Part shown: positions 17,343-27,881 of the stretch, one piece after another | Numbering within the stretch: the first letter of the stretch is position 1 | Layout of the letters: each line of letters starts with the position of its first letter | DNA from: an uncultured Bacteroidia bacterium | Lineage (GTDB): Bacteria; Bacteroidota; Bacteroidia; Bacteroidales; Prolixibacteraceae | Direction: 5' to 3' | Length of the DNA stretch: 34,860 nt | Assembly (NCBI GenBank): GCA_903923905.1 | Contig: CAIXZH010000025.1 | Coordinates: 1 to 34,860 of the forward strand | Notes under the pieces: generated by a model | What the model was told of the DNA's origin: nothing | Seen by the model: only the letters and a program-made list of their open reading frames with translations | The model's database searches: none | Position numbers and translations under genes: made by a program

Positions 17343-17942
17343 CTATTTATGCCTTTTTTTCAATTCGCGGGCGATATCTTCAATGCCAAGACCCTTATGT
17401 GAAAGAAGAACAATGAGATGATAAACAAGATCGGAGGCTTCGTAAAGCAACCTTTCATCGTTATTGGCCATCGCTTCGATCACCGTTTCTATGGCCTCCT
17501 CTCCAACTTTCTGTGCCATGCGTGAGAGTCCGTCTTCGAAAAGCGAGGTGGTATAGGAACCCTTTGGCATTTCCTTCCTGCGCTTATCAATAAAATCCTG
17601 CAATTGTTTAAGAAACTGAATGTCATCGGTCTTATTCTGCTCGCCCCAACAGGTATCGGTCCCTTTATGACAAACCGGTCCCACAGGATTAACTTTAATC
17701 AGCAAAGTATCTTCATCGCAATCAGACTGGATAGAGACCACATTTAAAAAATTGCCCGACTCCTCCCCTTTTGTCCAGAGTCTGTTTTTGGTCCGGCTAT
17801 AGAAAGTCACCAGATTGGTGGCAACAGTCTTATCATATGCCTCTTTATTCATAAACCCAAGCATTAACACCTTGCTTGTTGTATTATCCTGAATAACAGC
17901 AGGAACAAGTTCACCTGCCAGTTTAGAAAAATTAAGTTCCAT
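17343..17942 (-). CDS. hisIE: Phosphoribosyl-AMP cyclohydrolase / phosphoribosyl-ATP pyrophosphatase (fused HisIE)
   Basis: Bifunctional enzyme for the second and third steps of histidine synthesis, 199 aa as usual for the fusion. The HisI half (about 1-110) carries FYSRTKNRLWTKGEESGN, the metal-binding SDCDEDTLLIKV and the zinc cysteine stretch CHKGTDTCW. The HisE half (about 115-199) carries SYTTSLFEDGLSRMAQKVGE followed by the EAxExVIEA and ExxDLxYH metal-binding helices. It is 91 bp downstream of hisF and 18 bp upstream of the DUF1460 gene. Confidence 0.98.
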   Translation of the reverse strand: MELNFSKLAGELVPAVIQDNTTSKVLMLGFMNKEAYDKTVATNLVTFYSRTKNRLWTKGEESGNFLNVVSIQSDCDEDTLLIKVNPVGPVCHKGTDTCWGEQNKTDDIQFLKQLQDFIDKRRKEMPKGSYTTSLFEDGLSRMAQKVGEEAIETVIEAMANNDERLLYEASDLVYHLIVLLSHKGLGIEDIARELKKRHK

Positions 17943-18033
17943 AAAGTAATTCTATCAAATTTTGCTTTGCGGCTCTGCATCTGTTGCAAAAACCAATATA
18001 TTCCATTGAGCGGGTTTCAATTTTTTCATTAAA

Positions 18034-18786
18034 CTACCTCACGCAAATCCCGCGTCCGCGAAGGTAGTGCTTTAGATCGGGAATGGCAATTTCGTGAAAA
18101 TGGAAAATACTCGCGGCAAGTCCGGCATCTGCCTTACCCAGAGTAAAAACATCAGCGAAATGTTCCATACTTCCGGCTCCTCCGGAGGCAATCAACGGAA
18201 TAGTCAAGTTATCAGACAATTTTGCCAGTTCATTATTAGCAAAACCGTTTTTAGTGCCGTCGTGATTCATGGAGGTGAACAGGATTTCACCGGCTCCACG
18301 GCTCTCTGCCTCTTTTGCCCAGGAAAATAGCTCCTTATCGGTAGGGATTCGACCACCATTAACTGTAACAGTCCAATAATCATGGACTTCACGTGCATCA
18401 ATGGCGACTACCACAAACTGACTGCCAAAATTGCGGGCCAGATCGTCAATAAGTTGTGGATTCCTCACTGCGGAAGAGTTGATTGAGATTTTATCAGCAC
18501 CGGCAGCCAACAGAGCTTCGGCATCGCGGATTTCGCTGATTCCACCCCCAACGGTAAATGGGATATCAAGATTCCGGGCAATTCGCTTGACCAGTTCCAC
18601 AAATGTTTTGCGACCCTCGTGTGTAGCGGTAATATCAAGGAACACCAGCTCATCGGCACCCTGTTCGGCGTATAGCTTTCCGAGTTCAACCGGGTCACCC
18701 ACATTAATGATATTTACAAAATTAACCCCTTTCACGGTTTGTCCGTCCCGGATATCGAGACATGGTATGATTCGTTTTGCGAGCAT
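18034..18786 (-). CDS. hisF: Imidazole glycerol phosphate synthase, cyclase subunit
   Basis: TIM-barrel subunit that uses ammonia from HisH to make imidazole glycerol phosphate and AICAR. 250 aa, full length. The two catalytic aspartates are at the canonical places, Asp11 ([10 protein letters not shown]) and Asp130 (VVAIDARE). Phosphate-binding loops VGGGIS (79-84) and ASGGAGS are intact. It lies 229 bp downstream of hisA, the largest gap inside the operon, which holds a small inverted repeat. Confidence 0.98.
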
Positions 18787-19015
18787 ATTCTTAGAGTTTA
18801 ACAGTTATAAAAGGCAGAAGGCAGAAGATAAAAAAATGAAGTGCTTCCTAATTGCCTGTTTGCCTGTTGACTTTGGTTGTTTATTAAATAAAATTTCACC
18901 TTATCGATTTTTGCCAGACAATTAATTCTCTGTAAGTTTTCATGACATCTAATTTAGTAAATATCCTTTTTACCTCTCACTTCATGAACCAACTTCTCCC
19001 TTCTGCCTTGTGTCT
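18787..19015. repeat. hisA–hisF spacer with GGCAGAA heptamers in inverted orientation
   Basis: The plus strand has AAGGCAGAAGGCAGAAG at 18811-18827 (two heptamer units GGCAGAA) and, about 180 bp away, CTTCTGCCTT at 19000-19009, the exact reverse complement of 18811-18820. Between them GCCTGTTTGCCTGTTG forms another short direct repeat. No T-tract, promoter or credible small gene was seen. It could be the remnant of a small dispersed repeat. Confidence 0.5.
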
Positions 19016-19762
19016 TTACCCTTCGGCCTTACTTATAAAACACTCAATCTCCTTCATAGTTATCCTTCCTTCATAGATTGCTTTCCCGGTAATTACAGCC
19101 GGAATGCCGGCATTTTGCAATTCCAGGATATCTGACATTGAACTCACCCCGCCGCTGGCAATCAGGTAAGTCCCAGGTACAGCCTGAAGTATTTTCCGGT
19201 AAAGGTCGGTTGCCGCACCCTCCAGCATTCCATCGCGGCTGATATCCGTACTGATGATTTTCCGGATGCCGGCAGCATACCATTTTGTGATATACGAAAA
19301 GATATCCGATTCTGTGCTCTCCTTCCACCCGGCCACAGCAATCATTTCATTTTTGGCATCGGCACCCAGGATTATTCTTTCGGCTCCATATATTTCAATC
19401 CATTTCAGGAAAGTCTCAGGAGATTTAACAGCTATGCTTCCTCCGGTAACCATTGATGCTCCCGAGTCGAATGCAATTTTGAGGTCCTCATCCGATTTGA
19501 GTCCGCCACCAAAATCGACAATCAATTTTGTATTTAGCGTAATATTCTTTAAAACATTTTGGTTTACAATATGATGAGCCTCAGCTCCATCCAGGTCAAC
19601 CAGATGAAGCCGTTTCAGTCCTGCACTCTCAAACATTTTTGCCACCTCCAGCGGATTTTCATTGTAAATCGTCTTGCGGCCATAATCGCCCTGGCTCAAA
19701 CGGACACATTTACCATCGATAATATCAATGGCCGGAATAATTTCAATACTGTTATTTTTCAA
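19016..19762 (-). CDS. hisA: ProFAR isomerase
   Basis: Half-barrel-duplicated TIM-barrel enzyme for the Amadori rearrangement of ProFAR to PRFAR. 248 aa. Catalytic aspartates are Asp13 (IPAIDIIDGKCVRL) and Asp135 (LGADAK). Phosphate loops DFGGGLKS and ASGGVSS are intact. The start is a TTG at 19760-19762 whose TTGA overlaps the hisH stop codon by 3 nt; no ATG lies before the conserved IPAID, so translation is probably coupled to hisH. Confidence 0.96.
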   Translation of the reverse strand: MKNNSIEIIPAIDIIDGKCVRLSQGDYGRKTIYNENPLEVAKMFESAGLKRLHLVDLDGAEAHHIVNQNVLKNITLNTKLIVDFGGGLKSDEDLKIAFDSGASMVTGGSIAVKSPETFLKWIEIYGAERIILGADAKNEMIAVAGWKESTESDIFSYITKWYAAGIRKIISTDISRDGMLEGAATDLYRKILQAVPGTYLIASGGVSSMSDILELQNAGIPAVITGKAIYEGRITMKEIECFISKAEG

Positions 19763-20364
19763 ACGTTTAGATTTATAAAGTTGCTGAGGATTTTTGCACC
19801 GGTCGCACCGCTTTTTTCAGGATGGAATTGGGTGGCGTAAAAATTATCGCGTTGAAGTGCGGCACTAAACGGGATCAGATAATCGCAGGTTGCCGCGGTA
19901 TCGGGGCCGGCAGTGGCATAAAAGGAATGGACAAAATAAAAATAGTCATTCTCACTAATCCCGGAGAAAAGCGGGGTTTTTAAATCAGAAACACTGTTCC
20001 AACCCATATGCGGAATCTTAAACGAAGAGGAATCGGTGGAAAGAAGCTCAAATTTTCTGACCTTTTCAGGAAATATGCCAAGACAGGTGGTGTCTCCTTC
20101 CTCGGAATGGGTACACATCAGTTGAAGACCAAGGCATACTCCAAGCACGGGCTGCCTGAGATCACAAATCAAGGTGTCAAGCTTATGCGCTGCCAGATAG
20201 CTCATTGTGGTTGAAGCTTCTCCAACTCCCGGGAAAATGATCCTGTCGGCACTTCTGATTTCATCATGATCATCCGTAATCAATGCCGAAACGCCAAGCC
20301 TTTGAAGCGCAAAGTCGACCGACCGGATATTTCCGGCATTGTATTTAATAATTACAACCTTCAT
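19759..20364 (-). CDS. hisH: Imidazole glycerol phosphate synthase, glutaminase subunit
   Basis: Class-I glutamine amidotransferase that feeds ammonia to HisF. 201 aa. The catalytic triad is visible: Cys77 in LGVCLGLQL, His181 and Glu183 in QFHPEKSG. The oxyanion region PGVGEAS is present. The gene overlaps hisA and starts 24 bp after the thioredoxin-like gene. Confidence 0.98.
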   Translation of the reverse strand: MKVVIIKYNAGNIRSVDFALQRLGVSALITDDHDEIRSADRIIFPGVGEASTTMSYLAAHKLDTLICDLRQPVLGVCLGLQLMCTHSEEGDTTCLGIFPEKVRKFELLSTDSSSFKIPHMGWNSVSDLKTPLFSGISENDYFYFVHSFYATAGPDTAATCDYLIPFSAALQRDNFYATQFHPEKSGATGAKILSNFINLNV

Positions 20365-20388
20365 TTAAAATTTGTTGCTAAATAGTTT

Positions 20389-20952
20389 TTATTTTAAAAG
20401 CACCCCGATAATCCTGACCATCTCTCTGAATTCCCGTTCTTTAAATAACCTGGTCATATAAACGATCTTGCCCTCGCGATTGATGATCACATTTCGGGTT
20501 ACTCCCGCTCGTTTATCAGCGAACAGACCAAAAATATCCGCATTCGGATCGACTGCCAGCGGATACGAAATATTCATATCCTTTTGGTACTGTTTGACCT
20601 TTTCCAATGGCTCATCACGATCTACACCAAACAGCAGAAAATTGGAATTGTGTTTATTTTTAAACCATATATCCTGCTGAATATAAGGTATTTCCTTCCG
20701 GCAAATACCGCACCAGCTGGCTGTAAACTGTAACATAACCACTTTCCCTCTCCAGTCTTTGGAAGATATCTTTTTCCCATTGGAAAGGGTGAGGGTAAAA
20801 TCGGGTATTTTATCCCCTATTTTTGCCGTAAATTCGTATTCTTCAGGAATATCCTGTTTAGGAATTTCAACTCCTGATTGGCCAAAAGCATTGGTAAAAA
20901 TCAAAATTCCCACCAAAGCGGCAATCCTGTGATTTCGAAAAATGCTTTTCAT
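20389..20952 (-). CDS. TlpA/ResA-like thioredoxin-fold protein, exported
   Basis: A 187-aa protein with an N-terminal signal or anchor (about residues 8-24, ending near AFGQS) and a thioredoxin-like AhpC-TSA/TlpA domain (44-187). The redox motif is WCGIC with Cys81 and Cys84 in FTASWCGICRKEIP, and the cis-proline-containing VTRNVIINREG strand follows. Typical of periplasmic thiol-disulfide oxidoreductases in cytochrome maturation or redox repair. It sits in the his operon, 12 bp after purU and 24 bp before hisH, without an evident reason. Confidence 0.88.
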   Translation of the reverse strand: MKSIFRNHRIAALVGILIFTNAFGQSGVEIPKQDIPEEYEFTAKIGDKIPDFTLTLSNGKKISSKDWRGKVVMLQFTASWCGICRKEIPYIQQDIWFKNKHNSNFLLFGVDRDEPLEKVKQYQKDMNISYPLAVDPNADIFGLFADKRAGVTRNVIINREGKIVYMTRLFKEREFREMVRIIGVLLK

Positions 20953-20964
20953 TTGAATTTATTT

Positions 20965-21849
20965 TTAGTTAAAAACGACTGTCCGGTTGTTATATACCAG
21001 TATTTTTCGTTGCAAATGTTTGTAAACTGCCTCACTCAGAACGATTTTTTCCAGATCCCTTCCTTTCCGGATTAAACTATCCACATTATCGATATGGGAA
21101 ATCCGGACAACATCCTGGGCTATGATTGGACCGGCATCTAGATCTGTGGTAACATAATGACTGGTTGCCCCAATAATCTTTACGCCCCGTTCATGCGCTG
21201 CATGATAAGGTTTTGCTCCGGCAAATGCCGGCAAAAAGGAGTGATGAATATTAATGATCCGATTGGGATAGCTGGCAACAAACTGATCAGACAGCACCTG
21301 CATATACCTTGCCAGGACCACAAAATCTATATCATACTGCTGAAGAATTTCAATCTCACGTTTCTCCTGTTCCGCTTTATTGGAATTATCCTTCTCGATC
21401 AGCACGAAATCTATTCCAAACCGCTGTGCAACAGGCTTTAATAAATCATGATTACTGATGATCAATGGTATTTCAGTCTCCCAATCACCAGCGGTATATC
21501 GGGATAGGATATCAAAAAGACAATGAGACATTTTCGAAACAAATACTGCCATTCTCGGTTTTTTGTCTGAAAAATGGAGCGAGTATTTAATTGAAAATTT
21601 ACGTGCAATAAGTGTTTCAAAGTAATCCGAAATTTTCTCCCGGGGGATGGCAAATTTTTCCAGTTCCCATTCAACACGCATATAGAATAGACCTTCCTCA
21701 TGATCGACATGCTGATCGAGATAAATGATATTTCCGCGGTTTTCATTTAAAAATTCGGTTACGGCAGCCAAAATTCCCTGCTTATCCGGACAATAAATGA
21801 GTAAAATCGCTGTATTTCGGATTCCGGTAATCTTGCGAATCGATTGCAT
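20965..21849 (-). CDS. purU: Formyltetrahydrofolate deformylase
   Basis: Hydrolyses 10-formyl-THF to THF and formate, balancing one-carbon pools and supplying formate for purine synthesis. 294 aa. An N-terminal ACT domain (about 13-90, LLIYCPDKQGILAAV) is followed by the formyltransferase-like domain with VFVSKMSHCLFDIL, the catalytic NIHHSFLP (Asn200, His202), the PurU-type AFAGAKPYHAAHERG and Asp238 in TTDLDAGPII. The ACT domain and the GATSHYVT stretch separate it from PurN. It lies between hisB and the thioredoxin gene in the his operon; since HisF releases AICAR, which needs formyl-THF for conversion to IMP, a metabolic link is plausible. Confidence 0.96.
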   Translation of the reverse strand: MQSIRKITGIRNTAILLIYCPDKQGILAAVTEFLNENRGNIIYLDQHVDHEEGLFYMRVEWELEKFAIPREKISDYFETLIARKFSIKYSLHFSDKKPRMAVFVSKMSHCLFDILSRYTAGDWETEIPLIISNHDLLKPVAQRFGIDFVLIEKDNSNKAEQEKREIEILQQYDIDFVVLARYMQVLSDQFVASYPNRIINIHHSFLPAFAGAKPYHAAHERGVKIIGATSHYVTTDLDAGPIIAQDVVRISHIDNVDSLIRKGRDLEKIVLSEAVYKHLQRKILVYNNRTVVFN

Positions 21850-21902
21850 AAATAATATTTAATAGTTTCTAAGATTTGACAGGTTCAATTGCTTTAAAAT
21901 CT

Positions 21903-23027
21903 TTAAAGGACACCTTTAGTACTTGGAAGTGATTTAACAAAGGGGTCTTTGCGGATCGCCATCTTCAGGGCCCGGGCAAACGCCTTAAAGATCCCTTCGA
22001 TTTTATGATGTTCATTCGTCCCTTCGGCCTGAATATTCAGGTTCGCCAGGGCCGAGTCAGAGAGTGACTTAAAGAAATGAAAGAACATCTCAGTAGGCAT
22101 ATCCCCAACTTTCTCACGGTTAAATTCCGCTTTCCAGACGATCCAGGGTCTCCCGCCAAAATCGAGTGCAACCTGTGCCAGGCAATCGTCCATCGGCAGG
22201 CAATACCCATATCTTTCAATTCCCCGCTTGTCACCCAGGGCTTTCCGGATTGCCTCGCCAAGGGCTATACCAGTATCTTCGATGGTATGATGCTCATCCA
22301 CAGAGAGGTCCCCCTTAACTTGAATGGTCAGGTCACAACCTGAATGACGCCCGATCTGGTCAAGCATATGGTCAAAAAATGCGAGTCCGGTATGGATATT
22401 ACATTTCCCTGTTCCATCCAATTTTAGCTCAACAAAAATATCTGTCTCGGCTGTTTTCCGGCTCACGATGGCAGACCGCTCACCGATAACCAGGAAATTA
22501 AAAATAGTTTCCCACTGATCGGTTGCCAGGACACAATGCCCATCCAATCCACTTTCTTTTAGCTTAGTGATCTGATCTTCATGAACGAAAAAGATTCCTT
22601 TCGCCCCAAGGTTTTTGGCTAATTGGATGTCCGTAATCCGGTCGCCAATCACAAAAGAACCTGCAAGGTCATATTCCGGAGAGAAATATTCCTTTAACAT
22701 TCCTGTGCCAGGCTTACGATTAGGGGAGTTTTCTTCAGGAAAGGTTGGATCAATATGAATTTTATGGAAAGTAACCCCTTCATTTTCAAATGCTTTCAGC
22801 ATCATTTGCTGAGCAGGCCAGAAAGTCTCCTCAGGGTAGGAGGATGTCCCCAAACCATCCTGGTTTGAAACGATAACCAATTCAAAATCGGTCAGTTTTT
22901 GGATATTATACAGGTTTCGGAATACGCCAGGTATAAATTCGAGTTTTTCGAGTGAATCAACCTGCATATCGCTGGTTGGCTCCACGATCAACGTTCCGTC
23001 CCGATCTATAAAAAGAATCTTCTTCAT
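21903..23027 (-). CDS. hisB: Histidinol-phosphatase / imidazoleglycerol-phosphate dehydratase (fused HisB)
   Basis: Bifunctional enzyme for two late steps of histidine synthesis, 374 aa, the usual fusion length. N-terminal HAD phosphatase (about 1-165): nucleophile motif DRDGTL (Asp8, Asp10), SNQDG, and GDRITD as the acidic HAD motif. The four zinc ligands of E. coli HisB (Cys93, His95, Cys101, Cys103) are replaced by Asp93, Thr95, Ser101 and Asn103 at identical numbering. The C-terminal dehydratase (about 185-374) has [14 protein letters not shown], the metal motifs DEHHTIED (244-251) and NEHHKIEG (338-345). The spacer to purU is 53 bp. Confidence 0.97.
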
Positions 23028-23183
23028 TATTACACATATTTGTCCGAAGCCCGACCTTCAGTGTGACATTTGAGATTCCAATCTATTAAAGATACGAAAT
23101 CGCCACCAGAAAAGCTGGGTTTTGTTATTATTTTTTATGCCAGTTCCGACGTTTCGGGGCTTAATCTACAATTTGTTTAAATT

Positions 23184-24221
23184 TTAAATCAACTGATCAA
23201 ATGCCTCCATTAAAGTTGCATTTTCCTCGGGTGATCCGATACTGATTCGGAGACACCCTTCACAAAGAGCAATTGAAGATCGGTCCCGAACAATAATTTT
23301 TTCGTCAACCAGGTAATTATAAATACCCCGGGGATCATACACCTGGACCAGCACAAAGTTCGCATCCGACGGATACACCTTAATCACAAAGGGATAAAGT
23401 AATAAATTCCGGATCATCTTCTCCCGTTCCTTAAGGATTATTTTTACCCACTCATTTTTCAGCTGCTCACCTGCCAGCAGTTCAAGCCCTTTTTGCTGAG
23501 TCAGGATATTGAGATTATAGGGATATTTTATCCGGCTTAACACCTCGATGATCTTTTCATTGGCAAAGGCCATTCCAAGCCGCAGTCCTGCCATTCCCCA
23601 TGCTTTTGAAAAGGTTTGAAGAATAACCAGGTTGGGATATTTATCCAGATCCGGAAGCAATGACTTTTCAGGACAAAAATCAATATAGGCTTCATCAACT
23701 ACGACAAGGCCATTAAAATTACTGATTATCTGCAATATACCACAGTTATCAAGGGTATTTCCCGTAGGATTGTTAGGGGAACACAGAAAAATAATCTTGG
23801 TTTCGGCAGTTACTGCAGCCAGGACAGATCCGGCATCCAGCTCAAAGTCTGAAGTCAGCGCGACCTGATTAACGGCAATATTATTGGTGTCAGCTGCCAC
23901 CCGGTACATTCCATAGGTTGGATTTATTGACACAACATTATCTTTCGCCGGTTCGCAAAATGCACGAAACAGCAGATCGATGGGTTCATCGCTTCCGTTA
24001 CCCAAAAAGATTTTCTCTGTCGGGACATGCTTAATTTCGCACACCTTCTCCTTCAGTATTCGCTGGTGCGGATCGGGATAGCGGTTCCATGGGGAATTAT
24101 ACGGATTTTCGTTGGCATCCAGAAATACTGCAGCCTCACCCGAAAATTCATCCCTTGCACTGGAATAGGGTTTCAGGTTGCGGATATTCCTGCGTAATAA
24201 TCTGTCGATATCAAAATTCAT
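23184..24221 (-). CDS. hisC: Histidinol-phosphate aminotransferase
   Basis: PLP-dependent class-I/II aminotransferase converting imidazole-acetol phosphate to histidinol phosphate with glutamate. 345 aa. The PLP lysine is Lys206 in QTFSKAWGMAGLRLG; Asp176 and Tyr179 (VVVDEAYIDF) contact the cofactor and the C-terminal LRISIGSPEEN binds substrate. The start codon overlaps the stop of the preceding 60-aa gene (ATGA), and a 156-bp spacer without clear structure separates it from hisB. Confidence 0.97.
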   Translation of the reverse strand: MNFDIDRLLRRNIRNLKPYSSARDEFSGEAAVFLDANENPYNSPWNRYPDPHQRILKEKVCEIKHVPTEKIFLGNGSDEPIDLLFRAFCEPAKDNVVSINPTYGMYRVAADTNNIAVNQVALTSDFELDAGSVLAAVTAETKIIFLCSPNNPTGNTLDNCGILQIISNFNGLVVVDEAYIDFCPEKSLLPDLDKYPNLVILQTFSKAWGMAGLRLGMAFANEKIIEVLSRIKYPYNLNILTQQKGLELLAGEQLKNEWVKIILKEREKMIRNLLLYPFVIKVYPSDANFVLVQVYDPRGIYNYLVDEKIIVRDRSSIALCEGCLRISIGSPEENATLMEAFDQLI

Positions 24222-24400
24222 ATCTTATCTTGCTTTTTTAATTTTGTCCGCCCAACATATTTCCCAATATAATAAGCTATTAATACAATTACAACTGAAA
24301 ATTGTGACAGGAGTTTTGAATTTCCCCACTGGATAATCAAGGTGAAGATTACTCCACAAAAGATGATGAATAAAAAATCAAAGTACCGGAACCTGTTCAT
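24218..24400 (-). CDS. Small two-helix membrane protein in the his operon
   Basis: Unrecognised 60-aa protein: MNRFRYFDFLFIIFCGVIF, then two hydrophobic segments (about 7-24 and 31-46) separated by a short polar turn (QWGNSKLLS), and a strongly basic tail ending GRTKLKKQDKI. By the positive-inside rule both ends should be cytoplasmic. It is taken as real because it is 23 bp after hisD, its TGA overlaps the hisC ATG (ATGA, translational coupling), and no other frame there is coding. A function cannot be inferred. Confidence 0.72.
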   Translation of the reverse strand: MNRFRYFDFLFIIFCGVIFTLIIQWGNSKLLSQFSVVIVLIAYYIGKYVGRTKLKKQDKI

Positions 24401-24423
24401 TTCAGTTGAATTAAATTGTAGGA

Positions 24424-25707
24424 TTATTTCGCTTCTTTCATTCTCAGGGTTGCGGCATTCTTATGGGCAAACAGCTGCTCTGCCTGAGCCATCTCCTCGA
24501 TCACCGGTCCAAGGTTTTTAATTCCTTCACTGGTGATCTCCTGGAAAGTTACTTTCTTGCAAAAGCTGTCGAGGCCAATGCCGCTGAACGATTTTGCCCA
24601 ACCATTAGTAGGAAGGGTGTGATTTGTTCCTGAAGCATAATCTCCGGCACATTCCGGAGTGTAGTTTCCGATAAAGACAGATCCTGCATTAATAATCCTA
24701 TCTGCGATAACTGCTGCATCTTTTGTGGCAATAATCAAATGTTCAGGCGCATAAAAATTAATCAATGTAAGCATCTCCTCAACATCCTTCACGAGTATAG
24801 CACGGCTGTTTTCGAGCGCTTTAGCGGCAATTTCTGATCGTGGAAGGGCTTTGAGCTGTTTTCCCATGACCTTTATCACATCCTTAATCAATTGTTCTTC
24901 AGTGGTTACCAAAATAACCTGACTGTCCGGGCCATGCTCTGCCTGGGACAGCAGATCAGCGGCAACAAAAGCCGGATTCGCTGTTTCATCAGCCATAACG
25001 GCCACTTCTGACGGACCGGCGGGCATATCAATGGCACACTCGGAGTTGGATACAAATTGTTTGGCCGCAGTCACCCATGAATTGCCGGGACCAAAAATCT
25101 TATCGACCTTTGGAACTGTTTCGGTACCGTAAGCCATGGCTCCAATGGCCTGCATACCTCCAACTTTATAGATCTCAGTAATATGACAAACCGATGCGGC
25201 AAACAGGATTGCAGGATGGATTTTCCCGTTCCGGTCCGGGGGAGTACAAAGGATGACATTACGACAACCCGCTATCATGGCCGGGATTCCCAACATTAGC
25301 ACAGTGGAGAACAATGGGGCTGAACCTCCGGGGATATATAATCCGACCTTTTCAATAGGAACCGATTTCTGCCAGCATTTCACGCCAGGCATGGTCTCTA
25401 TAATCCTATAAACCGCCTTTTGGGCAACATGAAATGTATCGATATTTTGTGCGGCAATATGAATTGCATTTTTTAGTTTGGGCTCCAATATTTGATCTGC
25501 CTCATCTATCTCATCAGCCGAAACTCTATAATCAGCAAGATCAGCATGATCAAATTGAAGGGTGAATTTACGTACAGCAGCATCACCTTCAGCACGGATT
25601 TTAGACATTACCTTACTAACCGTCTCAATTTTCTCCAGAAAATCAGCTGTTGGACGCCGGGTAATTTCCGGCCACGTATTAAACAGGGGATAACGGTAGA
25701 TTTGCAT
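24424..25707 (-). CDS. hisD: Histidinol dehydrogenase
   Basis: Zinc- and NAD-dependent enzyme that oxidises histidinol to histidine in two steps. 427 aa. The signature region SEVAVMADETANPAFVAAD-LLSQAEHGPDSQ holds the zinc ligands (Gln, His), and the catalytic Glu-His pair lies in NFYAPEHLIIA; the C-terminal YASGTNHTLPTNG motif with its zinc-binding residues is present. The gene is 11 bp after hisG and 23 bp before the small membrane gene. Confidence 0.98.
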   Translation of the reverse strand: MQIYRYPLFNTWPEITRRPTADFLEKIETVSKVMSKIRAEGDAAVRKFTLQFDHADLADYRVSADEIDEADQILEPKLKNAIHIAAQNIDTFHVAQKAVYRIIETMPGVKCWQKSVPIEKVGLYIPGGSAPLFSTVLMLGIPAMIAGCRNVILCTPPDRNGKIHPAILFAASVCHITEIYKVGGMQAIGAMAYGTETVPKVDKIFGPGNSWVTAAKQFVSNSECAIDMPAGPSEVAVMADETANPAFVAADLLSQAEHGPDSQVILVTTEEQLIKDVIKVMGKQLKALPRSEIAAKALENSRAILVKDVEEMLTLINFYAPEHLIIATKDAAVIADRIINAGSVFIGNYTPECAGDYASGTNHTLPTNGWAKSFSGIGLDSFCKKVTFQEITSEGIKNLGPVIEEMAQAEQLFAHKNAATLRMKEAK

Positions 25708-25718
25708 GGCATTAAAAT

Positions 25719-26579
25719 TTATAAAATCATTTTCTCAATTGGGAGGACCAAAATACCTTCAGCCCCATTTTTTTTCAGGTTGCCGATCACTACCCAGAAC
25801 TCACTTTCGTTAATTACCGAGTGTAAGGAGCTCCAACCCGCTTTCGCCAAAGGCATAATCGTAGGGGAAGTCATTCCGGGAAGCACTTTGATAATCTGAT
25901 CGAGTTTATCATTCGGTGCATTTAGCATGATATACTTTTTCCCTCTTCCCTTTTCAACTGCTTCAATCCGGAAGATCAGTTCATCCAGAATCACTTGCTT
26001 CTCGATGGAAAGATTGGGGGTTGCCACTAAAACTGCTTCAGAGTCAATAATAGTATGGACCTCCTTCAACCTATTACTAACCAAAGTACTTCCGGAACTT
26101 ACAATATCGAAAATAGCATCTGCCAGACCGATTCCAGGAGCAATTTCAACTGAACCGGCAATAAAGTGAGTATTAGCCACCAATTTATTTTCAGCAAGAA
26201 AATCTTTTAAAATCCGTGGATATGATGTGGCAATCTTCTTTCCTGCAAACCATTCAAGACCATTAAATTGTTCATCTTTTGGAATTGCCAGGGAGAGCCT
26301 GCACTTACTGAATCCCAAATGTTTAACGATCTCAACTTTTTGCTGCTGTTCCATCACCTCATTCTTCCCGACTATCCCGATATCGGCCACCCCATCTGCA
26401 ACACATTGAGGGATATCATCATCTCGCAGGAATAGCGCTTCAAGCGGGAAATTTTTGGCTGCAGAGATCAATCTCCGGCTGCTCGAAACTAATTTGATGC
26501 CAGTCTCAGAGAGCAAAGACATTGAATCTTCGTTCAAACGACCCTTGGTCTGTATGGCAATTCTTAAAATCGAATCCAT
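25719..26579 (-). CDS. hisG: ATP phosphoribosyltransferase, long form
   Basis: First and committed enzyme of histidine synthesis; 286 aa, the long form with its own C-terminal regulatory domain, so no HisZ is needed. The N-terminal catalytic part starts LRIAIQTKGRLNEDSMSLL; DIGIVGKNEV and the PRPP-binding loop EIAPGIGLADAIFDIVSSG (about 143-161) are clear. The C-terminal ACT-like domain (about 210-286) ends with the GITSPTI-like PGMTSPTIMPL and AEGILVLPIEKMI and should bind histidine for feedback inhibition. It is the first gene behind the his leader, which also controls its transcription. Confidence 0.98.
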   Translation of the reverse strand: MDSILRIAIQTKGRLNEDSMSLLSETGIKLVSSSRRLISAAKNFPLEALFLRDDDIPQCVADGVADIGIVGKNEVMEQQQKVEIVKHLGFSKCRLSLAIPKDEQFNGLEWFAGKKIATSYPRILKDFLAENKLVANTHFIAGSVEIAPGIGLADAIFDIVSSGSTLVSNRLKEVHTIIDSEAVLVATPNLSIEKQVILDELIFRIEAVEKGRGKKYIMLNAPNDKLDQIIKVLPGMTSPTIMPLAKAGWSSLHSVINESEFWVVIGNLKKNGAEGILVLPIEKMIL

Positions 26580-26591
26580 TTTTATAAAATT

Positions 26592-26624
26592 AAAAAAGGC
26601 CCACCTGATTGATAAGGTAAGCCT
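26592..26624 (-). terminator. Attenuator terminator of the his leader (segments 3:4)
   Basis: On the minus strand AGGCTTACCT (26615-26624) pairs with AGGTGGGCCT (26597-26606), a 10-bp stem with two U·G pairs and an 8-nt loop. A run of T follows (26592-26596), then hisG starts 13 bp further at 26579. It is an intrinsic terminator placed before the operon, as expected of an attenuator. Confidence 0.92.
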
Positions 26625-26678
26625 GAGTTTTGGTCATATGATTATGGACACACCAACACAAGCTCACCTTAAGGTAAG
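26614..26678 (-). promoter_or_regulatory. His attenuator: alternative RNA pairings 1:2 and 2:3
   Basis: Segment 1 CUUACCUU (26671-26678, within the leader's last codons) pairs with segment 2 AAGGUGAG (26663-26670). Segment 2 can instead pair with segment 3 GCUUACCUU (26614-26622) in a 12-bp helix with two U·G pairs (26659-26670 with 26614-26625), which extends with interruptions over UUG/GGU on one side and ACC on the other. Segment 3 is the 5' arm of the terminator. Segments 1 and 3 share the identical octamer CUUACCUU. A ribosome stalled at the His codons (26678-26692) covers segment 1, frees segment 2 to pair with 3, and prevents termination; fast translation favours 3:4. The mechanism is inferred from known leader-peptide attenuators. 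Confidence 0.88.
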
Positions 26679-26719
26679 TGATGTAGATGATGTCCGGTAT
26701 AAATGCTGAGCTTTGTCAT
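26669..26719 (-). CDS. hisL: His operon leader peptide, 16 aa with four histidines
   Basis: A 17-codon frame from ATG (26717-26719) to TAA (26669-26671) encodes MTKLSIYTGHHLHHLP. His codons 10, 11, 13 and 14 (CAT CAT CTA CAT CAC) give four of five consecutive codons for histidine, which is very unlikely by chance directly ahead of hisG. The stop codon lies inside the segment 1/2 hairpin, the position needed for ribosome stalling to control the alternative RNA structures. The start is about 17-20 nt from the predicted transcription start. The peptide itself has no expected function. The name hisL is by analogy with enterobacterial leaders; no sequence homology beyond the His run is claimed. 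Confidence 0.9.
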   Translation of the reverse strand: MTKLSIYTGHHLHHLP

Positions 26720-26735: not shown

Positions 26736-26765
26736 CAATATTAATTAAAAATCAGATTCGATCAA
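26736..26765 (-). promoter_or_regulatory. Predicted his operon promoter (Bacteroidota type)
   Basis: On the minus strand TTG (26763-26765) is followed after exactly 19 bp by TAATATTG (26736-26743), one mismatch from the Bacteroidota -33/-7 consensus TTG-N19-TAnnTTTG. The expected start point about 5-8 nt later leaves room for a short 5' end before the leader ATG at 26719. It lies about 50 bp after the argE stop codon. Confidence 0.65.
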
Positions 26766-26816: not shown

Positions 26817-27881
26817 CTAAAACTTCAACCCTTCCAGCAGTTTGATATAGGTTTCAATTCCCCCGCTAATTTCCGATATCAGGATATATTCATTCGCAGT
26901 ATGGGAGCGTGCAGAATCACCGGGGCCCATTTTGACTGAAGGGTAAGGGATCACTGCCTGATCAGAGGTTGTAGGTGAACCGTAGGTATTTAATCCCATT
27001 TCGACAGCACGCTTGACCAATGGATGGCTCGGACTGATCCGTGAAGAATTGAGTCTGAAAGAGCGCGGGCGAACCTCCGATTCAATTAGTCCAGCAATAA
27101 CATGAAAAGCCTCATCGTTTGAATAGAACTCATTGGTACGCACATCGATCACAAAACGGCATGAATCAGGCACCACGTTATGTTGGGATCCCGCTTCAAT
27201 TTGTGTGACAGTCAATTTCACCGGTCCCAGTACGGGAGACTCCAGCGGAAACCGGTATTGCTCAAGAATCTGAATATCCTTAATGGCTTTATAGATGGCA
27301 TTAACCCCTTCATTACGGGCTGCATGACCAGCTTTCCCTTTAGCCTCACAATCCAGAACTATTAATCCTTTTTCTGCAATAGCCACATGCATTTGTGTGG
27401 GTTCACCTACAATCGCCAGATTTATTTTGCCAAGCTGATCCAGAACGGAGGCCACTCCATTTGGACCGGAAATCTCCTCTTCGGCGCTGGCACAGAAGAT
27501 CAGGTTATATGGCAGGTTTTCAACATGGTAAAAATAACGGAATGCTCCCAGCAAAGCAACCACTGATGCTCCTGCATCGTTGCTTCCAAGACCAGTCAAC
27601 CGGTCTTCTTCAACAGTTGCTTTAAAAGGTTCGTAGATCCACCCCTTCCCTGAACGCACGGTATCGACGTGGGAATTAAACAAAACAACCGGTTTCGATT
27701 CGGACCAGTCGGCGCTGCGGATCCAGATATTATTTCCACTTCTTTCAAATGGCAGTTCCCACAATCTGAATTTCTCCTCCAGGTAATCAACGACCTCTTT
27801 TTCCTCCCTGCTTAACGAAGGGATCTCAATCATCGCTTTGAGCAGCTCAATACTATCTGAAATGATTATCTCTTTCAGCAT
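26817..27881 (-). CDS. argE: M20-family N-acyl-ornithine/-citrulline deacylase (ArgE-like)
   Basis: Zinc-dependent M20 metallopeptidase that removes the acyl group in arginine synthesis; 354 aa. Metal ligands and base are visible: His71 and Asp73 in FNSHVDT, Asp102 in GSNDAGAS, Glu134/Glu135 in SAEEEISG, Glu159-region GEPT, and the C-terminal His in SARSHTANEYI. Given ArgF' with Pro90 next to it, the substrate is probably N-succinyl- (or N-acetyl-) citrulline rather than acetylornithine; this is inference from the pathway described in Bacteroides. It is 3 bp after argB and the last gene of the cluster; no terminator is seen before the his promoter. Confidence 0.92.
   Translation of the reverse strand: MLKEIIISDSIELLKAMIEIPSLSREEKEVVDYLEEKFRLWELPFERSGNNIWIRSADWSESKPVVLFNSHVDTVRSGKGWIYEPFKATVEEDRLTGLGSNDAGASVVALLGAFRYFYHVENLPYNLIFCASAEEEISGPNGVASVLDQLGKINLAIVGEPTQMHVAIAEKGLIVLDCEAKGKAGHAARNEGVNAIYKAIKDIQILEQYRFPLESPVLGPVKLTVTQIEAGSQHNVVPDSCRFVIDVRTNEFYSNDEAFHVIAGLIESEVRPRSFRLNSSRISPSHPLVKRAVEMGLNTYGSPTTSDQAVIPYPSVKMGPGDSARSHTANEYILISEISGGIETYIKLLEGLKF

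Follow-up and report, generated by a model that had tools for sequence, protein, structure and literature searches.

The region between an argE-like gene and hisG in this uncultured Bacteroidia genome very probably controls the histidine operon by ribosome-mediated transcription attenuation, and a comparable arrangement of leader and switch lies before hisG in the majority of the related Bacteroidota genomes sampled. The parts of the element, their conservation, the mutual exclusion of its RNA pairings, covariation in the wider sets of relatives and the geometry of the ribosome relative to the pairings are directly supported by sequence, comparison and folding. We infer from them a response to histidine and termination in the cell: according to the folding model, high histidine would most likely turn the his genes off. 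The enterobacterial type of his attenuation logic that the earlier note had proposed for this site is thus upheld by the parts, the conservation of the His run, the wider-set covariation and the folding switch.

The window (the whole stretch of DNA analysed, 34,860 nucleotides) carries proB, proA, an N-acetylornithine carbamoyltransferase gene, argB and the argE-like gene 5' of the leader, all on the same strand, and hisG is presumably co-transcribed with the his-cluster genes that follow it (Table 1). As a separate observation, purU and the thioredoxin-like gene (20389-21849) are inserted in the his cluster, between hisB and hisH. The nearest relatives among the named loci are uncultured Bacteroidia, Mariniphaga and Prolixibacteraceae genomes. 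Re-reading of the sequence confirmed the leader ORF and its histidines at residues 10, 11, 13 and 14, as well as the octamer CUUACCUU common to segments 1 and 3, all of which had been noticed earlier. The description of the element as unusually compact had to be abandoned: the 140 nt that separate the leader start from hisG fall inside the normal span of the relatives (196 nt in E. coli). A-rich DNA with no evident Shine-Dalgarno sequence lies 5' of the leader. Further upstream are a possible -33 box, assigned with TTG, which we take to be the consensus, and a -7 box whose form TAnnNTTG is retained in the genus alignment. The TAnnTTTG promoter consensus, as described in PMC9723704, was found at most 50 nt 5' of the leader start in 96 of 181 loci with a His leader, as compared to 5.65 in shuffles, and the relaxed form TAnnNTTG in 130 of 181 as compared to 16.45. 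The window's leader is probably preceded by an active promoter and probably translated.

Table 1. Features of the his leader region and its neighbourhood in the window
Feature	Position	Strand	Basis or remark
argE-like gene	26817-27881	-	flanks the leader region on the 5' side
Possible -33 box, TTG	26763..26765	-	19 nt 5' of the -7 box; sequence only, weak
-7 box, TAATATTG	26736..26743	-	TAnnTTTG with one change; 16 nt 5' of the leader start
Leader peptide ORF, MTKLSIYTGHHLHHLP-stop, 16 residues	26719-26669	-	sequence; His run in relatives
His control codons (H10, H11, L12, H13, H14)	26678..26692	-	sequence; His run also in relatives
Extended 1:2 (pause) hairpin, takes in the His codons	26646..26695	-	minimum-energy fold
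1:2 core, 6 bp	26673-26678 with 26663-26668	-	z -2.87
Segment 2, 5' arm of the antiterminator	26659..26670	-	folding, alignments
Segment 3, 3' arm of the antiterminator, overlaps the terminator 5' arm	26614..26625	-	folding, alignments
Segment 4, 3' arm of the terminator	26597..26606	-	folding, family alignment
T-run of the intrinsic terminator	26592..26596	-	sequence; ends 12 nt 5' of the hisG start
hisG, first gene under control	25719..26579	-	NCBIfam TIGR00070, 192.8 bits
hisD, hisC, hisB, purU, thioredoxin-like gene, hisH, hisA, hisF, hisIE	17343..25707	-	3' of hisG

Folding of the leader RNA recovered the three pairings that had been read from the sequence, with one correction. The 3:4 hairpin (26615-26624 with 26597-26606; 10 pairs, an 8-nt loop and the T-run; -14.7 kcal/mol, z -4.65) was found at its expected place by both a terminator scan and folding, and the 12-bp 2:3 antiterminator (26659-26670 with 26614-26625; -24.9 kcal/mol, z -5.61) forms where it had been predicted once segment 2 is free. 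The 1:2 pairing is correctly located, but the eight base pairs written for it in the earlier note would leave no loop, and the folded core has six. That note had also overlooked the extent of the 1:2 hairpin, which covers the His codons and ends with GGA-CAU (Gly and the first His codon) at 26695 and GUCC at 26646; its core covaries in the alignment of family f1, the window's own family, and its outer part is paired in only 80.5% of the cells of the genus alignment. As a whole, the 146-nt transcript (-38.6 kcal/mol, z -3.44) folds into the extended 1:2 hairpin and the terminator.

We then surveyed the DNA upstream of hisG in relatives. The gene was detected in 32 of 41 genomes comprising the window's own genome and its relatives, in 110 of 247 genomes of the class and in 213 of 247 of the phylum, these sets overlapping. 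Upstream DNA was taken from a part of the hisG matches, hand-picked for spread, and from 36 named loci; the fetch left out, among others, further members of f59, f62, f73 and f93 (families are denoted by numeric labels). Removal of duplicates and of two loci in which the hisG start is missing (L063, L064) gave 217 distinct upstreams, i.e. those of 200 genomes in a manually compiled family table and 17 named loci. Thirteen loci (L142, L223-L228, L230-L235) were oriented by their listed strand, with no alignment.

A short ORF with at least three His in seven residues precedes hisG in 181 of the 217 upstreams (116 of 4340 base shuffles), and one with at least four in 153 (2 of 4340 shuffles), fractions that pertain to a hand-picked rather than a random sample. 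At the lower threshold the run was seen in 167 of the 200 genomes, belonging to 49 of 60 families, and in 14 of the 17 named loci; a few of the loci included in these counts (L076, L078) look spurious. The His codons are constant while the remaining residues of the peptide vary. No other amino acid reached four in seven residues in more than 28 of the 217 upstreams, the same scan of the reverse strand yielded 1 of 217 at four His and 9 of 217 at three, and among 27 upstreams of trpE, ilvD and PDT genes a single one reached three His. Loss of the run in relatives had been set as a refutation of the attenuator; it is in fact present in all 22 genomes of family f1 that were examined. In the genomes sampled from 11 of the 60 families no His leader was found: a single genome each from f22, f65, f74, f96 and f101, and 0/4 in f62, 0/2 in f82, 0/3 in f90, 0/10 in f93, 0/3 in f94 and 0/2 in f113. 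For f93, f96 and f113 even hisG is matched weakly (E about 1e-32 to 1e-38), but elsewhere, as in f94, the match is strong, which indicates that certain lineages with a similar hisG genuinely lack the leader.

Short ORFs rich in other amino acids were observed upstream of other genes, among them ilv leaders and tandem trp leaders in the window's genus. In the window's own genome (L248), as well as in L249 and L251-L254, a pair of Trp leaders lies in tandem before trpE, with a terminator-like hairpin after each: the first contains SIWLWWGNTFLC and has a CCGGCUUACC-type hairpin, and the second contains WRWQ and has a hairpin of the ACGG(U/C)UUAUCG type. Both leaders are found in 6 of the 8 full-length trpE loci examined. 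Upstream of ilvD, a leader with a Leu/Val/Ile run (MKNIFSHSLLLVVILILV...) occurs in the own genome (L263) and in the relatives L261, L262, L264, L265 and L267-L270; at least six L/V/I in seven residues were counted in 9 of 10 loci (a raw count), L266 being the exception, and the seven aligned loci have a terminator-like hairpin. Phe/Tyr-rich short ORFs, e.g. MNIFGFAYYFFFYFYFTK, lie upstream of PDT (pheA-type) genes from two further families of the order (L246, L237); a candidate pheA leader in the window's genus was not convincing.

Of the 181 loci, 168 have a hairpin with a T-run in the interval from the His run to hisG, and 152 have a strong terminator there (-8 kcal/mol or better). Four of the latter (L006-L009) are absent from the tests on 148 loci described below, the hairpin finder having taken their 2:3 helix. 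As an observation apart, four loci with no strong terminator (L074, L075, L086, L142) have leaders ending in HHSS and a palindrome of the UCCUCC-stop-GGAGGA type at the stop codon.

The linker between leader and terminator pairs with the 5' arm of the terminator better than its own dinucleotide shuffles (mean z -2.31, 148 loci): the antiterminator ranks in the best 5% of shuffles at 86 loci and in the best 1% at 54, the other 62 lying outside the best 5%. A control in which the linker was compared to those of other loci gave a weaker result, the own linker being in the best 5% for 24 of 148 loci and in the best 25% for 87. The position of the antiterminator is conserved as well, since its best site falls in the first third of the linker at 76% of 140 loci (42% in shuffles). 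The terminator arm varies by lineage and segment 2 changes with it: GGCUUACC is paired with GGUAGGCC in the window's order and several other families, CCCGUUUGAG or CCCGUCUGAG with CUCAAGCGAG or CUCAGGCGAG in what we call the flavobacterial type, and CCCCGGCG with GCGCCGGU in f92.

These data bear on the idea that the hairpin with its T-run does no more than end transcription of the upstream arg genes, the short ORF having arisen by chance. The site does lie between two same-strand gene groups, where a terminator would block read-through from the argE-like gene, and chance terminator-like matches are to be expected in such AT-rich DNA: the terminator scan alone is not significant, with 2 found and 1.6 expected in the region. 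Yet an arg terminator accounts neither for a His run shared by 49 families, nor for a promoter-like box placed shortly before the leader in 130 loci, nor for an antiterminator conserved together with its position, and we regard it as very improbable.

Covariation was examined in alignments of the genus (16 sequences), of family f1 (21), of the flavobacterial type (24; so named after a single named locus, L062) and of f92 (13). The last three were hand-picked, and the counts from 500 shuffles given here do not account for relatedness. The genus alignment displayed zero double changes in any stem, its variation being too low. In family f1, the 1:2 and 3:4 pairings taken jointly are paired in 98.2% of cells with double changes at 5 pairs, a result reached by 3 of 500 shuffles, and the 2:3 pairing (84.5% paired, 2 pairs) did not exceed shuffles (64 to 497 of 500 depending on the measure). 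In the flavobacterial type, which like the f92 set was chosen by arm type and thus leans towards the structure, the 2:3 helix is paired in 94.3% of cells with double changes at 3 pairs and in 10 cells (0 of 500 shuffles), the 3:4 hairpin in 93.4% with 3 such pairs (17 of 500), and the 1:2 hairpin in 84.2% with 2 pairs (97 of 500 by pairs, 1 of 500 by covariation score). In f92, the 2:3 helix (90.8% paired, 3 pairs) was matched by 59 of 500 shuffles by pairs and by none by covariation score, and the 3:4 hairpin (90.4%, 2 pairs) did not go beyond shuffles (58 to 156 of 500). Compensatory changes, whose loss had been named as the second refutation, are present for 1:2 and 3:4 in family f1 and for all three stems in the flavobacterial type, but absent within the genus and no more frequent than in shuffles for 2:3 in f1; the support from covariation comes from the wider comparison.

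The attenuator would operate as follows. Transcription would start at a promoter just 5' of the leader, and the first stretch of RNA would code for a peptide of 16 residues, four of them specified by His codons. When charged tRNA-His is scarce, the ribosome would stall early in the His run, covering segment 1 and leaving segment 2 free; 2:3 would then pair ahead of the synthesis of segment 4, and the polymerase would continue into hisG. When histidine is plentiful, the ribosome would reach the stop codon and cover segment 2, so that 3:4 could form and transcription would stop before hisG.

The spacing of the parts suits such a mechanism. Where the antiterminator is significant (86 loci), the distance from the first His codon to the start of segment 2 is 22-34 nt (5-95 percentile); its lower bound is partly built in because the search for segment 2 began after the last His codon. 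Relative to the stop codon, segment 2 starts from -19 to +3.5 nt. What counts against the mechanism is that at 21 of the 86 loci segment 2 starts less than 12 nt past the last His codon (10 nt in the window), so that a ribosome stalled at that last codon would overlap segment 2.

At equilibrium, the switch is clear in the window, with a predicted terminator probability of 0.97 for the free RNA, 0.0003 with a ribosome stalled in the His run and 0.976 with a ribosome at the stop codon, but only 17 of 148 loci (18 of 2960 shuffles) switch in this manner. We therefore added a test on truncated RNA, in which 13 nt downstream of the A-site codon are masked and the capture of segment 3 before segment 4 is made is scored. 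In the window, predicted capture is 0.999 with the ribosome at the first His codon and 0.10 with the ribosome at the stop codon; the means over the 148 loci are 0.73 and 0.17 (0.44 and 0.35 with shuffled linkers). A switch was obtained at 112 of 148 loci, spanning 33 families, compared to 412 of 2960 shuffled linkers; 80 loci beat all 20 of their own shuffles, and 36 do not switch. Since few loci switch at equilibrium, most would rely on folding during transcription. For an untranslated leader, the folding results disagree: the long 1:2 hairpin may tip the balance towards termination, as in the equilibrium fold, but the truncated RNA of the window prefers 2:3 (0.95) in the absence of a ribosome, which counts against a superattenuated untranslated state. 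Altogether, the modelled element displays the features of the attenuator class, namely a leader ORF rich in codons for the end product, a predicted terminator, mutually exclusive 1:2, 2:3 and 3:4 pairings and distinct predicted masking by a stalled ribosome and one at the stop codon.

The leader could instead act on translation, by altering access to the hisG start codon; attenuators of this kind are known, as PMC9413887 recounts. The predicted openness of the hisG start is nevertheless nearly equal with a stalled ribosome and with a ribosome at the stop codon (0.57 and 0.59, means over 152 loci), and strong terminators with T-runs at 152 of 181 loci speak against translational control, for which we see very little chance.

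Transcription attenuation may nonetheless have been modified in two clades, where a His leader is found with no strong terminator: all 11 f99 genomes examined (L206, L208, L210-L212, L215, L217, L218, L221, L222, L236) and all 6 from f59 (L172, L175, L177-L180). Past the leader stop, the f99 sequences are C-rich and G-poor, with a C/G ratio of 2.67 (10 loci) compared to 0.91 at the 152 terminator loci, a composition that hints at replacement of the terminator by a Rho-dependent mechanism, or by another one without a terminator, for reading out the same histidine sensor. Consensus folding of f99 predicted no pairs and no shared fold, and we saw no sign of sequestration of the hisG start codon in this family. 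One may speculate, although we would wager somewhat against it, that leader-peptide attenuation is an old and general mode of regulation in Bacteroidota, with a phylum-wide his attenuator of which at least two clades have kept the leader and lost the strong terminator.

As for known RNA families, the window contains zero Rfam matches at gathering score, and 20 relatives gave only an SRP RNA (in L096), with no His_leader and no T-box; the 7 matches obtained at E up to 10 include none that is credible. As a control, E. coli hisL scored 131.6 bits against RF00514 (His_leader). That a riboswitch or T-box senses histidine or tRNA-His directly, the peptide being incidental, is the least probable reading of all: his genes are under T-box control in Firmicutes, according to PMC9413887, but neither the Rfam searches nor the retention of His codons in an otherwise variable peptide fits it. 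The absence of an Rfam match for the ribosome-mediated attenuator indicates a gap in the Rfam catalogue.

Classical attenuation requires a ribosome that follows closely behind RNA polymerase. The spread of the attenuator in a phylum of which at least the flavobacteria lack Shine-Dalgarno sequences, as stated in PMC9723704, makes transcription-translation coupling in Bacteroidota directly testable. The his leader is also a candidate histidine-responsive regulatory part for Bacteroidota strains.

In a full-text search of open-licence papers, we recognised none that sets out a his attenuator for the phylum. Attenuators in Bacteroidetes may, reportedly, have been predicted by Lopatovskaya et al. 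in 2010. Several published statements come close. In the passages concerned, PMC2965389 (2010) knew of no system of this kind outside Proteobacteria and Actinobacteria except its own Firmicutes case and ermC; PMC4833913 discusses leader genes in many phyla including Bacteroidetes and names hisG attenuation for other groups only; and PMC7366714 describes short ORFs of B. thetaiotaomicron as reminiscent of leader peptides. The main text of a survey of his genes in the superphylum (PMC8305728, 2021) does not contain the word "leader" and uses "attenuation" once, for enterobacteria; how these his operons are regulated seems to have been overlooked.

Compared to known systems, the element resembles the enterobacterial his leader (hisL, RF00514) in having a His-run peptide before hisG, a hairpin over the His codons, an antiterminator and an intrinsic terminator, the E. 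coli features being cited partly from general knowledge. It differs from E. coli hisL in its 4 His instead of 7, its length of 140 instead of 196 nt, its arm sequences, its A-rich 5' stretch with no evident Shine-Dalgarno sequence and its TAnnTTTG-type box, and from RF00514 in that neither the window nor the 20 relatives match the covariance model. With the His leaders described in three Firmicutes lineages (PMC9413887), to which we liken it by description, it shares a run of 3-5 His codons followed by attenuator, antiterminator and terminator, in another phylum. The closest precedent is the Flavobacterium psychrophilum study of Guerin et al. 2021 (PMC9723704), which, in its treatment of amino-acid biosynthesis operons, reports strong clues for leader-peptide attenuation and a structured 5' element before hisG that has no Rfam hit, as in the window. 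Unlike the present analysis, that treatment gives conservation for other Flavobacteriaceae only, and comprises no peptide, pairing scheme or phylum survey. The principle was thus partly anticipated: the his attenuator is a well-supported case of a known mechanism, for which priority lies in part with the 2021 paper.
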